Shown: one piece after another, positions 2,461-6,605 of the stretch
Position numbering within the stretch: the first letter of the stretch is position 1
Layout: each line of letters opens with the position of its first letter
NCBI RefSeq assembly: GCF_003003075.1
Contig: NZ_PVTX01000005.1
Coordinates: 124,001 to 188,000, forward strand
DNA from: Isoptericola halotolerans
Lineage (GTDB): Bacteria; Actinomycetota; Actinomycetes; Actinomycetales; Cellulomonadaceae
Direction of reading: 5' to 3'
DNA: 64,000 nucleotides
The notes under the pieces: generated by a model
The model's input: the letters and a program-made list of their open reading frames with translations, nothing else
Told to the model about the DNA's origin: nothing
Databases searched by the model: none
Made by a program: the position numbers and the translations under genes

Positions 2461-2466
2461 TAGATT
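2461..2466 (+). promoter_or_regulatory. -10 element of leaderless promoter for the cysteine leader peptide
   Basis: TAGATT matches TANNNT, and the A of the leader ATG (2474) lies after exactly seven bases, so transcription probably starts on the start codon. No convincing -35 element is seen around 2438. The remaining divergent region, 2307-2460, holds the opposing -10 at 2314-2319 and no other site that I can support. Confidence 0.55.
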
Positions 2467-2473
2467 CCTCGGC

Positions 2474-2578
2474 ATGACCACGGCCGCGCCCCGCTCCCTC
2501 ACGACCACCCGTCGTGGGATGTCGGCGCGCCCCTGCCTGCGCATGCGCATGTGCAGCTGTCAGTGCTGCTGTCGCTGA
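2474..2578 (+). CDS. cysteine-rich leader peptide (attenuator ORF) upstream of sirA
   Basis: A 34-residue open frame with six cysteines, five of them in the last eight residues (C27, C29, C31, C32, C33, with C21 earlier). It ends MCSCQCCCR just before a TGA, 130 bases upstream of sirA. Cysteine is otherwise rare in this genome. Polycysteine leaderless short ORFs that act as cysteine-responsive attenuators of sulfur operons are known in mycobacteria. Here too the ORF has no Shine-Dalgarno and sits seven bases after a -10. Ribosome stalling at the Cys codons when charged tRNA-Cys is short would be expected to change folding of the 2579-2708 leader and expose the sirA ribosome-binding site. The function is inferred; the ORF itself is seen directly. 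Confidence 0.75.
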   Translation: MTTAAPRSLTTTRRGMSARPCLRMRMCSCQCCCR

Positions 2579-2708
2579 TCGCGCCCCACCTCAGCCCCAC
2601 CCGCACCCGCGGACCTGAGCACCGGCGCGCGCCGTCGGTCTCGGCCCACCCCTGCTGAGCCTTCGTCGTCGCGCGTCCCGCCCCCGAGGACCCGAGGAAC
2701 CCCCAGAG
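2579..2708 (+). promoter_or_regulatory. sirA 5' leader with candidate RBS-masking pairing
   Basis: 130 bases between leader-peptide stop and sirA start. Two GAGGA motifs lie at 2686-2690 and 2694-2698; the second is ten bases from the ATG and is the likely ribosome-binding site. GGTCTCGG at 2637-2644 can pair with CCGAGGACC at 2684-2692 with one bulge, which would hide the first motif and crowd the second. This is a hand-drawn pairing, not a computed fold. Confidence 0.35.
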
Positions 2709-4442
2709 ATGACGACGCAGACCACCCCCGCCACGCAGGACCCCGCCGACGCACCCGCGCGCCCCGCTCGTCCGGCCCGCGCCGCGCGGCCGAACGGCCA
2801 GTGGAAGATCGACGGCACGACCCCGCTGAACCACAACGAGGAGTTCAAGCAGGAGTCCGACTCCCTCGCCGTGCGCGAGCGGATCGAGAACATCTACGCC
2901 CACGAGGGCTTCGACTCCATCGCCGACGACGACCTGCACGGTCGTTTCCGCTGGTGGGGCCTGTACACCCAGCGCAAGCCCGGCATCGACGGCGGCCGGA
3001 CCGCGACGCTCGAGCCGCACGAGCTCGAGGACCGCTACTTCATGCTCCGCGTGCGCACCGACGGCCAGGCACTCGACCCGGCCGCGCTGCGCGTGCTCGG
3101 CGGCATCTCGGCCGACTACGGCCGCGGCAGCGCCGACATCACCGACCGGCAGAACATCCAGTACCACTGGATCGAGGTCGAGAGCATGCCGGACATCTGG
3201 CGCCGCCTCGACACCGTGGGCCTGGAGACGACGACCGCCTGCGGCGACTCGCCCCGCGCGTTCCTCGGGAGCCCGGTCGCGGGCGTCGCGGCGGACGAGA
3301 TCATCGACCCCACCCCGGTGATCCTCGAGATCAAGAAGCGCTACATCGGCGACCCGGAGCTGGCGAACCTGCCGCGCAAGTTCAAGACGGCGATCACCGG
3401 GCACCCGAGCCTCGACGTGGTCCACGAGATCAACGACATCTCGCTCGTCGGGGTGCGCCACCCCGAGCTCGGCGCGGGCTACGACCTGTGGGTCGGCGGC
3501 GGGTTGTCCACCAACCCGCGGCTCGGCGAGCGGCTCGGCGTGTTCGTCACGGCCGAGCAGGCGCCCGACGTCTGGCACGGCGTCATCCGGATCTTCCGGG
3601 ACTACGGCTACCGCCGTCTGCGCAACAAGGCTCGTCTGAAGTTCCTGCTCAAGGACTGGGGCACCCAGAAGTTCCGCCAGGTCCTGGAGGACGAGTACCT
3701 CGGCTACGCGCTCCCCGACGGTCCCCCGCCCGCACCGGCCACGCGGCCCGGCGACCACGTGGGCGTCCACGAGCAGAAGGACGGTCGGTTCTACGTGGGC
3801 GCGGCGCCCGTCGTGGGACGGGTCGGGGGCGGCACGCTCACCGGTCTCGCCGACCTCATCGAGTCCGTGGGCGCGGAGTCCGCCCGGCTCACCGCGCACC
3901 AGAAGGTCGTGATCCTCGGGGTGCCCGCCGACCGGGTGGACGACCTGGTCGCCGGCCTGGAGCCCCTCGGCCTGACGGCGCGGCCCAGCCTGTTCCGCCG
4001 CTCGACCATCGCCTGCACCGGCATCGAGTACTGCAAGCTGGCCATCGTCGACACCAAGGACACCGCCACGCGCGTGATCGGTGAGCTGGAGGAGCGGCTC
4101 GGCGACATCGAGGACCGCCTCGGCAAGCCCATCGAGCTGAACGTCAACGGCTGCCCCAACTCCTGCGCCCGGATCCAGACGGCGGACGTCGGCCTCAAGG
4201 GCCAGATCATCACCGTCGACGGCGAGCAGGTGCCCGGCTTCCAGGTGCACCTGGGCGGCGGGCTCGTCGACGAGGGCCGCGAGGCGGGCGAGCTCGGCCG
4301 CACCGTGCGCGGGCTCAAGGTCCCGGCCACGGAGGTCGCCGACTACGTCGAGCGCGTCGTGCGCCGCTACGAGTCCGACCGGGACGGCACCGAGACGTTC
4401 GCCCAGTGGGCGCACCGGGCGGACGAGGAGGCCCTGCAGTGA
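2709..4442 (+). CDS. sirA: ferredoxin-dependent assimilatory sulfite reductase (SirA/NirA family)
   Basis: 577 residues, the normal length. It reduces sulfite to sulfide with six electrons, using siroheme coupled to a 4Fe-4S cluster. Cluster and siroheme ligands are visible as C436-x5-C442 (ACTGIEYC) and C482-x3-C486 (GCPNSC). Tyr86 (GLYTQR) and Cys178 (TACGDSPR) lie 92 residues apart, the same spacing as the Tyr69-Cys161 covalent pair of mycobacterial SirA, which favours sulfite over nitrite as substrate. The first 25 residues are a low-complexity PAR-rich tail. The stop overlaps the cysH start by four bases, so the two are translationally coupled. Siroheme genes follow directly. Expression is probably set by the cysteine leader peptide upstream. 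Confidence 0.93.
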   Translation: MTTQTTPATQDPADAPARPARPARAARPNGQWKIDGTTPLNHNEEFKQESDSLAVRERIENIYAHEGFDSIADDDLHGRFRWWGLYTQRKPGIDGGRTATLEPHELEDRYFMLRVRTDGQALDPAALRVLGGISADYGRGSADITDRQNIQYHWIEVESMPDIWRRLDTVGLETTTACGDSPRAFLGSPVAGVAADEIIDPTPVILEIKKRYIGDPELANLPRKFKTAITGHPSLDVVHEINDISLVGVRHPELGAGYDLWVGGGLSTNPRLGERLGVFVTAEQAPDVWHGVIRIFRDYGYRRLRNKARLKFLLKDWGTQKFRQVLEDEYLGYALPDGPPPAPATRPGDHVGVHEQKDGRFYVGAAPVVGRVGGGTLTGLADLIESVGAESARLTAHQKVVILGVPADRVDDLVAGLEPLGLTARPSLFRRSTIACTGIEYCKLAIVDTKDTATRVIGELEERLGDIEDRLGKPIELNVNGCPNSCARIQTADVGLKGQIITVDGEQVPGFQVHLGGGLVDEGREAGELGRTVRGLKVPATEVADYVERVVRRYESDRDGTETFAQWAHRADEEALQ

Positions 4443-5323
4443 CCGCCGTCTCCGTCGCCCTCGGGGTCGGCCCGAACGCCAGCGGCGCACCCGCGCCGGC
4501 CAGCTCCTCGCTGGCCGGTGCCGCCGCGGCGGCCAAGCGCCGTGCCGCGGAGCGGGAGCAGTCCCGCGCCCGACGCCGCGCACGCGTCGACGGGCGCGAG
4601 CGTCGCCGCCGCTCGGACTCCGAGCTGAGCCAGATCGCCGCCCGAGGACGCCGCGAGCTCGGCGGCTCGGGGATCGGCTCGGCGGACGAGGCCTCGGCGC
4701 ACGAGGTCATCGCGTGGGCCGTCGAGCAGTTCGGCGACTCCCTCGCCGTCGCGTCCTCCATGACCGACTCGGTCCTGGCCGCGCTGGTCAGCGAGCAGCT
4801 GCCGTGGGTCGACGTCCTGTTCGGCGACACGGGCTACCACTTCGCCGAGACGCTGGGCACCCGCGACGCGGTCGCGCACCAGCTCGACGTGACGGTCGTG
4901 GACGTGCGCCCGCGCCTCAGCGTCGCGGAGCAGGCCGAGGCCTACGGTCCCGACCTGTTCGCCCGCGACCCCGAGGCGTGCTGCCGCATCCGCAAGGTCG
5001 AGCCCATGCGGGACATCCTCACGGGCTACGAGGCCTGGGCCACCGGCGTCCGCCGCGCGGACTCCGGCTCGCGCGCCTCGGCCGAGCTCGTCTCCTGGGA
5101 CGCGTCGAACAACCTGGTGAAGATCAACCCGATCGCCGCCTGGTCGGACGACGAGCTGGTCGGCTACGCGCTGGCCAACGGGCTCACCGTCAACCCGCTC
5201 CTGAACGACGGGTACCCGTCGATCGGCTGCGAGCCCTGCACCCGCCGGGTCGCCCCGGGCGAGGACGTCCGCGCCGGCCGCTGGTCCGGCGTGGACAAGT
5301 CCGAGTGCGGCCTGCACATCTGA
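4439..5323 (+). CDS. cysH: adenylyl-sulfate reductase (CysH, 4Fe-4S type)
   Basis: 294 residues from a GTG whose GTGA overlaps the sirA stop. It reduces activated sulfate to sulfite with thioredoxin. Paired cysteines CCRIRK (about residue 180) and GCEPCTRR (about residue 262) are the 4Fe-4S ligands that mark APS rather than PAPS reductases, and the C-terminal SECGLHI carries the catalytic cysteine. SSMTDSVLAALV and FGDTGYHFAET are the nucleotide-binding regions. The first 75 residues are an unusual Ala/Arg-rich extension (AAAKRRAAEREQSRARRRAR) absent from most CysH proteins; an internal start could shorten it, but no better ribosome-binding site is seen. No ATP sulfurylase genes follow in this window. 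Confidence 0.93.
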   Translation: MTAVSVALGVGPNASGAPAPASSSLAGAAAAAKRRAAEREQSRARRRARVDGRERRRRSDSELSQIAARGRRELGGSGIGSADEASAHEVIAWAVEQFGDSLAVASSMTDSVLAALVSEQLPWVDVLFGDTGYHFAETLGTRDAVAHQLDVTVVDVRPRLSVAEQAEAYGPDLFARDPEACCRIRKVEPMRDILTGYEAWATGVRRADSGSRASAELVSWDASNNLVKINPIAAWSDDELVGYALANGLTVNPLLNDGYPSIGCEPCTRRVAPGEDVRAGRWSGVDKSECGLHI

Positions 5324-5342: not shown

Positions 5343-6605
5343 GTGAGCGACCTCTACCCCCTCGGCCTGCGCGTGCGCGGCCGGCTCGTCGTCGTCGTCG
5401 GCGGCGGGCCGGTCGCCGCGCGCCGGGTGCGCGGCCTCCTCGACGTCGGTGCCCGGGTGCGCGTCGTCGCGCCCGCGCTCGCCGGTGACCTCGCCGAGCT
5501 CGCGGCGGCCGACGCCGTCGAGCACCGCGCACGCGAGTACGCCCCCGGCGACCTCGACGGCGCGTGGCTCGTCCACACCGCGACCGGCGTCCCGGCCGTG
5601 GACGCCGCCGTGGCCGACGACGCCGAGGGCCTCCGCACGTTCTGCGTCGTCGCCGCCGACGCCGCGGCCGCCTCCGCCTGGATCCCGGCGTCCGCCACGC
5701 TGGCCGAGGAGCAGGTCGTCGTCGCGGTGCACGCCGGCCGCGACCCTCGCCGCGCCGTGCGGCTCCGCGACGGGATCGCGGCCGCGCTCGAGGCGGGCGA
5801 GCTGCCGCTGCGCCGGGTCCGTCCGCGCGGTGCGGACGGACCCGGCGCCACGCCGGCTCACCCCGGGCGGGTGGCCCTCGTGGGCGGCGGGCCCGGCGCG
5901 CCGGGGCTGGTCACCGGCCGCGGGCGCCGCCTCCTGGCGAGTGCCGACGTCGTCGTCGTGGACCGGCTCGGGCCGCGGTCGCTGCTCGGGACGCTCTCCG
6001 ACGACGTCGAGGTGATCGACGTGGGCAAGACCGCGGGCAACCACCCCGTGCCGCAGGAGCGCATCAACGAGCTCCTCGTGGAGCACGCGCTGGCCGGGCG
6101 CGACGTCGTGCGCCTCAAGGGCGGCGACCCCTACGTGTTCGGGCGCGGCGGCGAGGAGCTGGCCGTCTGCCGCGCGGCGGGGATCGACGTCGAGGTGGTG
6201 CCCGGGGTGACGTCGGCCGTCTCGGTGCCCGCCGCCGTCGGCATCCCGGTGACGCACCGCGGCGTCGCCGGCGGGTTCAGCGTGCTCACGGCGCACGAGG
6301 CGGTGGCCCACGTCCCCGGAGGGGCCGACCACACGCTCGTGCTCCTCATGGGTGTCACCCGCCTGGCCCGGACGGCGGAGGCGCTCGTCGCCGCCGGACG
6401 GCCGGCGTCCACCCCGGTAGCCGTCGTGGAGGACGGCTACGGCCCCCGCCAGCGGGCCACCTTCGGGACCCTGGCGGACATCGCCGGGCGCGCCGCGGAC
6501 GCCGGGGTGCAGCCGCCGGCCGTCACCGTGGTGGGCGACGTCGTGCGCCTCGCGCCGGGCTGGGCCGCTCACACCGCCGACGACCGGTCCGTGAGCACCT
6601 CGTGA
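5343..6605 (+). CDS. cysG: siroheme synthase: precorrin-2 dehydrogenase fused to uroporphyrinogen-III C-methyltransferase
   Basis: 420 residues, GTG start. Residues 1-150 form the NAD-dependent precorrin-2 dehydrogenase module with the nucleotide loop VVVGGGPVAARR. From about residue 175 comes the SAM-dependent methyltransferase, with VALVGGGPGAPGLVT, VRLKGGDPYVFGRGGEE and PGVTSAVSVPAAVGIPVTHR. It converts uroporphyrinogen III to precorrin-2 and then oxidises it to sirohydrochlorin. Iron insertion is likely done by the chelatase encoded next. The gene starts 19 bases after cysH and supplies the cofactor of SirA. The N-terminal module is shorter than the full CysG ferrochelatase part of enterobacteria, so the separate chelatase makes sense. 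Confidence 0.9.
   Translation: MSDLYPLGLRVRGRLVVVVGGGPVAARRVRGLLDVGARVRVVAPALAGDLAELAAADAVEHRAREYAPGDLDGAWLVHTATGVPAVDAAVADDAEGLRTFCVVAADAAAASAWIPASATLAEEQVVVAVHAGRDPRRAVRLRDGIAAALEAGELPLRRVRPRGADGPGATPAHPGRVALVGGGPGAPGLVTGRGRRLLASADVVVVDRLGPRSLLGTLSDDVEVIDVGKTAGNHPVPQERINELLVEHALAGRDVVRLKGGDPYVFGRGGEELAVCRAAGIDVEVVPGVTSAVSVPAAVGIPVTHRGVAGGFSVLTAHEAVAHVPGGADHTLVLLMGVTRLARTAEALVAAGRPASTPVAVVEDGYGPRQRATFGTLADIAGRAADAGVQPPAVTVVGDVVRLAPGWAAHTADDRSVSTS

Follow-up and report, generated by a model that had tools for sequence, protein, structure and literature searches.

A conserved polycysteine leader ORF and adjoining competing hairpins as a probable cysteine-responsive attenuator of the sirA-cysH-siroheme operon in Isoptericola halotolerans

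In Isoptericola halotolerans, the genes for sulfite reduction are preceded by a short ORF of 34 codons that is densely packed with Cys codons next to its stop and, judging from comparative analysis, very probably acts as a cysteine gauge for sulfur-assimilation genes. Together with an RNA element immediately past its stop, this ORF probably constitutes a cysteine-responsive, ribosome-mediated attenuator of the sirA-cysH-siroheme operon. The locus lies close to one end of the window, by which we mean the whole stretch of 64,000 nucleotides (64 kb) that was analysed, and includes the following coding features:

2474-2578, + strand: polycysteine leader ORF, 34 codons, with the conserved start MTTAA and the conserved end SCxCCCR directly before the stop
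2564-2572, + strand: conserved Cys run TGC-TGC-TGT, the predicted stall site; each Cys is kept in 14 to 16 of 16 species
2709-4442, + strand: sirA, sulfite reductase of the ferredoxin type (NCBIfam nitrite/sulfite reductase families; best match under the curated cut-offs)
4406-5323, + strand: cysH, (phospho)adenylyl-sulfate reductase (NF002537, 242 bits, over the cut-off; start codon uncertain)
5343-6605, + strand: siroheme synthase-like (cysG-like) gene, precorrin-2 dehydrogenase plus uroporphyrinogen-III C-methyltransferase (TIGR01469 and TIGR01470, both over the cut-off)

The ORF that follows the siroheme synthase-like gene looks, by eye, like a sirohydrochlorin chelatase. Among named organisms, I. 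halotolerans and I. cucumis have the closest relatives of the window sirA, and a genome search places them in the same genus.

The leader, with the translation MTTAAPRSLTTTRRGMSARPCLRMRMCSCQCCCR, contains six Cys codons, which begin at 2534, 2552, 2558, 2564, 2567 and 2570 (codons 21, 27, 29, 31, 32 and 33), five of them among the final eight sense codons. The leader stop ends at 2578 and sirA begins at 2709, leaving a gap of 130 nt, and a TAGATT hexamer (2461-2466) lies 7 nt ahead of the leader ATG; on all these points, and in its coordinates throughout, the sequence-only reading that drew attention to this locus was correct. Among all ORFs of the window, on both strands, the leader is unique in having at least five Cys in the final eight codons, and ORFs with even four such Cys were absent from 2.56 Mb of sequence simulated with an order-1 Markov model. 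The bare motif CCCx-stop is not enriched genome-wide (10 matches, compared to 10 for the reversed control) and is thus not rare in this genome, so that the leader has to be judged by its density of Cys, its location and its conservation. A longer form of the leader, read from the ATG at 2423, was rejected because the -10 box falls between this ATG and 2474, where the conserved peptide begins.

The region from the leader to sirA is present in all 18 Isoptericola genomes, and in the 16 species that were compared in detail, the peptide starts with MTTA(A/T) and nearly always ends with SC(Q/L)CCCR. All 15 indels in the leader ORF within the genus are multiples of three (3, 6 or 12 nt), a pattern typical of translated frames; among the 90 indels in the spacer, one is a multiple of three and 88 are 1 or 2 nt long. 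Conserved terminal Cys codons, on which the sequence-only reading had staked its case, are present in all 16 species and across the family. Comparison of sequences thus indicates that the leader is coding, that its Cys codons and its distance from the promoter are conserved, and that the element downstream is unique to this locus. The control-level frequency of CCCx-stop would be compatible with a Cys-rich frame that arose by chance, with no function, from GC-rich intergenic sequence, but such an origin is exceedingly improbable, being refuted by conservation in 18 of 18 genomes of the genus, the in-frame indels, the fixed promoter spacing and the absence of comparable ORFs from the simulation.

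Beyond the genus, about 52 of 70 GTDB family genomes encode at least three Cys within the last ten residues of the ORF upstream of sirA, a count obtained by a mechanical criterion and with some uncertain ORF starts; in several of the remaining genomes, the ORF is Cys-rich but has fewer Cys or has them at internal positions. Among the named genomes, the leader was found in Isoptericola, Cellulosimicrobium, Oerskovia, Sanguibacter, Promicromonospora and Luteimicrobium, and the latter five genera have other Cys-rich ends and synonymous TGC/TGT changes. Named genomes of Arthrobacter, Microbacterium, Agromyces, Brachybacterium and Knoellia lack the leader as defined by the three-Cys criterion. Cys-rich ORFs are also present ahead of sirA in two other families of the order (f9 and f11).

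Two features upstream of the leader are conserved in position:

2461-2466, + strand: -10 box TAGATT (TANNNT)
2415-2430, no strand assigned: imperfect palindrome resembling an operator, GTCCCA-N2-ATGCGGAC, located before the promoter and 44-59 nt ahead of the ATG

A TANNNT box lies exactly 7 nt ahead of the leader ATG in all 16 Isoptericola species, none of which has a Shine-Dalgarno sequence between the two; no consensus sigma-70 promoter was found at the locus. From the position of the box, the transcript is expected to begin at the leader ATG or one base earlier, and the sirA leader mRNA is probably leaderless. The palindrome, in the form GTCCCA-N2-ATG(C/T)GGAC, occupies the same place in 16 of 16 species, with the first base changed (ATCCCA) in two, and a weaker version of it, GTCTCA...TGTGG, lies at 2396-2409; no other exact copies were found in the whole genome. 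The palindrome suggests that an additional protein regulator (a transcription factor) acts on the sirA operon.

Evolution of the ORF as a translated frame and retention of the palindrome in all 16 species could also be accommodated by a functional Cys-rich microprotein, involved in metal or sulfide binding, that would be next to sirA incidentally, with regulation exerted through the palindrome, at which further control may come from a repressor or activator. We consider this unlikely given that, between genera, the peptide is altered nearly everywhere except for the Cys near the stop, the number and spacing of which vary freely, and that neither a bias to rare codons nor an RNA element tied to the stop would be expected for a protein function. 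TGT accounts for 107 of the 176 terminal Cys codons in leaders across the family (61%) compared to 12 of 220 in the long ORFs of the window (about 5%), so that most sensor codons are of the rare type; sirA-cysH-cysG contain no TGT among their 12 Cys codons.

The interval between the leader stop and sirA contains the following RNA features:

2580-2594, + strand: segment 1, CGCGCC (2580-2585) and CTCAG (2590-2594), identified in alignments, 1 nt past the leader stop; pairs with segment 2
2615-2629, + strand: segment 2, CTGAG (2615-2619) and GGCGCG (2624-2629), common to hairpins 1:2 and 2:3
2633-2645, + strand: segment 3, CGTCGGT-CTCGGC, with segment 2 (hairpin 2:3), GCTGAG (2654-2659) or 2684-2692 as possible partners
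2654-2659, + strand: GCTGAG, pairs with CTCGGC (2640-2645) or CTCAGC (2590-2595)
2664-2717, + strand: predicted hairpin around the sirA ribosome-binding site, CGTCGTC (2664-2670) with GACGACG (2711-2717), in the fold of 2660-2720 (z -1.5)

Hairpin 1:2 (2580-2585 with 2624-2629, and 2590-2594 with 2615-2619) and hairpin 2:3 (2615-2627 with 2633-2644) are mutually exclusive. The predicted fold of 2579-2662 is hairpin 1:2 (-33.1 kcal/mol, z -2.1), and removal of the first ten bases, which mimics a stalled ribosome, yields hairpin 2:3. The nearly invariant blocks after the leader stop also include CGTCGTC at 2664-2670, the region of the sirA Shine-Dalgarno sequence (GAGGA at 2694-2698, with the ATG at 2709) and ATGACGACG. 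In the helix formed by GCTGAG at 2654-2659, pair 122:143 appears as G-U, A-U or G-C across genera, with pairing kept. The arms of the conserved element begin 1-3 nt past the leader stop. A covariance model of the element (R1) detects the window copy with an E-value of 8e-12, the next match being at 0.16, and among 150 family genomes, 40 have exactly one match, every one immediately ahead of sirA; the best matches in more distant genera begin 0-2 nt past the leader stop. No covariance model of the Rfam cis-regulatory families produced a match near its gathering score within 2300-2900.

The leaders of Antribacter (L057) and of three members of the Myceligenerans group (L079, L078 and L158) were found only via the RNA model. 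As read by hand, these ORFs have two or three internal Cys and overlap the match to the model (VIRSMRPEAMRGTRMCLCPL..., MTGLLMCSARCCLSARAVGD...).

The sequence-only reading had proposed a single pairing, of GGTCTCGG (2637-2644) with CCGAGGACC (2684-2692), as a way to hide the sirA ribosome-binding region. This pairing can form, with one bulged base, but it does not stand as the whole device: it is lost in one species (L009) and lies outside the predicted minimum-energy folds. It covers the GAGGA at 2686-2690, which is too distant from the ATG to be the Shine-Dalgarno sequence, and not the adjoining Shine-Dalgarno sequence itself. As far as can be judged from the alignments, what is conserved is a group of hairpins that compete with each other and start directly behind the leader stop.

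In trp-type attenuators, the position of the ribosome on amino-acid-specific codons picks between mutually exclusive 1:2 and 2:3 hairpins. The sirA leader would share this choice between 1:2 and 2:3 hairpins, but unlike these attenuators, has no intrinsic terminator (GC-rich hairpin and T run) within 2330-2760, and its output is probably access to the ribosome-binding site. We infer that, on an mRNA beginning at or beside the leader ATG, a ribosome provided with plentiful cysteine, that is, charged tRNA-Cys, would complete the leader and depart; segment 1 would then pair with segment 2, freeing segment 3, and in this hairpin 1:2 state, the sirA ribosome-binding region would be structured and expression low. 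When cysteine is scarce, the ribosome would stall on the terminal Cys run with its leading edge masking segment 1, hairpin 2:3 would form, the sirA ribosome-binding site would open more easily, and sulfite reduction would be turned on. With the ribosome paused for Cys at 2564, 2567 or 2570, its front would lie near 2577-2584 and reach segment 1, a geometry that agrees with the concentration of Cys codons at the end of the leader and with the few bases that separate the stop from segment 1 in all genera carrying the element. The regulated step is probably the translation of sirA.

An independent case in the same genome makes such a design more believable for sirA. The cysK gene (G000:C7, locus L293, match beginning at 1501) is preceded by the ORF MSTTAFPRAAFPASPRSRLLVRVPVGCAPMTACCCR, which ends 219 nt ahead of the aligned cysK start and is led by GGGGAGGAACCG-ATG, a Shine-Dalgarno sequence, so that this second leader is not leaderless. 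Its TAG stop adjoins the arm GAGCGTC, which pairs with GACGCTC downstream and could be masked by a stalled ribosome. A Cys-rich leader was detected ahead of cysK in 28 of 30 family loci, by the looser criterion of two Cys within the final nine residues. In other genera, the arms read GAGCGCT:AGCGCTC, GAGCGTT:AACGCTC and GGGCGTC:GACGCCC, with double-sided changes at three of the seven pairs and every cell paired, in a comparison for which the arms were paired by hand and the loci picked for a clean helix. A genome-wide hunt for the motif CCCx-TGA/TAA had left sirA as the sole plausible case; the cysK leader was missed because its stop is TAG and surfaced through the gene search. No polycysteine leader was found upstream of cysD.

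The evidence for the structural switch itself is mixed. With the native segment 1, the sirA Shine-Dalgarno-AUG region is harder to open than with a scrambled segment in 28 of 29 sequences, by 1.55 kcal/mol on average, these sequences coming from Isoptericola, Cellulosimicrobium, Oerskovia and Antribacter and being related to each other; the effect is absent from 24 leaders of more distant genera (9 of 24 positive, mean -0.13). Pairing energies between segments are unexceptional for such GC-rich sequence (mean z -0.2) and were rejected as evidence, shuffled GC-rich sequences pairing equally well. In hairpin 1:2, compensatory changes replace C-G by U-A in two Promicromonospora and A-U by G-C in Luteimicrobium, where one of the three G-C cells comes from a doubtful placement (L061), and the A5 covariation counts include one chance row (L006:2365-2425) that gives one further double change. 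Within the four nearest genera, covariation is uninformative because the segments and their pairs are nearly invariant. Altogether, the covariation support for the sirA element, as drawn from these alignments, is thin.

In two genera (g21 and g17; L071, L073, L094, L074 and L095), the sirA start codon is located within a strong local hairpin, GCGCC-N-AUGGCGC, and opening of the region from the Shine-Dalgarno sequence to the AUG is predicted to cost 11-15 kcal/mol, which may be another means of concealing the start.

The lack of the opening-energy effect in distant genera is compatible with a second account, under which the same cysteine-sensing leader regulates transcription: once the ribosome leaves, Rho would load on the C-rich spacer and terminate before sirA, and a stalled ribosome or hairpin 2:3 would block loading. 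On the sense strand, C makes up 52% and G 27% of the spacer (2579-2693), compared to a C/G ratio of 1.06 in the window, and the spacer is similarly C-rich in seven other species examined; Rho was also suggested for polycysteine leaders by Seliverstov et al. 2005 (PMC1262725). We view Rho-dependent regulation as a possible but doubtful alternative. C-richness alone is no proof of Rho dependence, the spacer having no intrinsic terminator either, a structural switch is favored by the conservation of the paired segments and by the covariation of the cysK hairpin, and the mycobacterial work is reported to support attenuation of translation. Given this mixed structural evidence, we deem the cysteine sensor well supported by the comparative data and the translational switch only the likelier of the two readings.

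The principle of such sensing is already known from mycobacteria and has been predicted in a few other actinobacteria. Mycobacterial leaderless polycysteine ORFs are reported to confer cysteine-responsive attenuation (Canestrari et al. 2020, PMID 32181921), and the window leader resembles these ORFs in being short, with a Cys run near the stop, probably leaderless, and located before a cysteine-metabolism operon. It differs from the mycobacterial leaders in its taxon, in its peptide and in the specific conserved RNA element downstream. NCBIfam includes the Cys-rich leader families Ms4527A (NF042936, the mycobacterial sirA leader) and Ms5788A (NF042933), and MSMEG_4527 is a ferredoxin sulfite reductase, so that sirA is already known as a target of polycysteine leaders in mycobacteria. 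The window leader does not match the profiles of these two families at E-values up to 1, then up to 10. Seliverstov et al. predicted leader peptides containing Cys runs for the cys operons of Mycobacterium and Propionibacterium acnes and, in Bifidobacterium longum, for cbs. As in the window leader, the Cys runs of these short ORFs ahead of cys genes lie close to the stop, non-mycobacterial actinobacteria included, but conserved terminator hairpins were not seen in that set, whereas the sirA element has conserved competing hairpins adjoining the stop. The sequence-only reading had called the arrangement on a sirA operon outside mycobacteria unusual; given the mycobacterial target and the predictions of 2005, this claim is weaker than stated.

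In four other families of the order (L106, L124 and L130-L133), sirA is preceded by a leader of the RRHVDL type that belongs to, or is close to, NF042934, annotated as a putative leader peptide. Like the window leader, this is a short leader before sirA, but it is a different peptide with one or two Cys, and the window leader has no match over the cut-off to the NF042934 cis_reg_atten profile. Thus, different types of leaders occupy the same place in different lineages. In Streptomyces lividans, the leaderless leader metL (MSTTSDRTPATEATTTPGARCMCRRMCAF; PMC8079986, Table 4) also has a Cys-rich end and may respond to cysteine no less than to methionine.

What is new here is a well-conserved example of a probable cysteine-sensing leader, the RNA element of which is newly described and which has a counterpart ahead of cysK. 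These findings extend cysteine-sensing leader ORFs, experimentally studied in mycobacteria, to another actinobacterial family and provide a candidate RNA switch with its segments named to the base, where the study of 2005 saw no conserved terminator hairpins in mycobacteria. The leader belongs to a class of unannotated genes that is overlooked by standard annotation pipelines. We regard it as an evenly balanced proposition that Promicromonosporaceae and their relatives possess a cysteine 'ribosome regulon' of two attenuator designs, namely a leaderless one ahead of sirA, with competing hairpins past the stop, and a Shine-Dalgarno-led one ahead of cysK, with the stop adjoining an arm of a covarying hairpin. 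Both would sense cysteine via dense terminal Cys codons; neither peptide is represented in NCBIfam, nor the sirA element in Rfam. The sirA and cysK leaders suggest that, outside mycobacteria, several sulfur operons are co-ordinated through the pausing of ribosomes at Cys codons.
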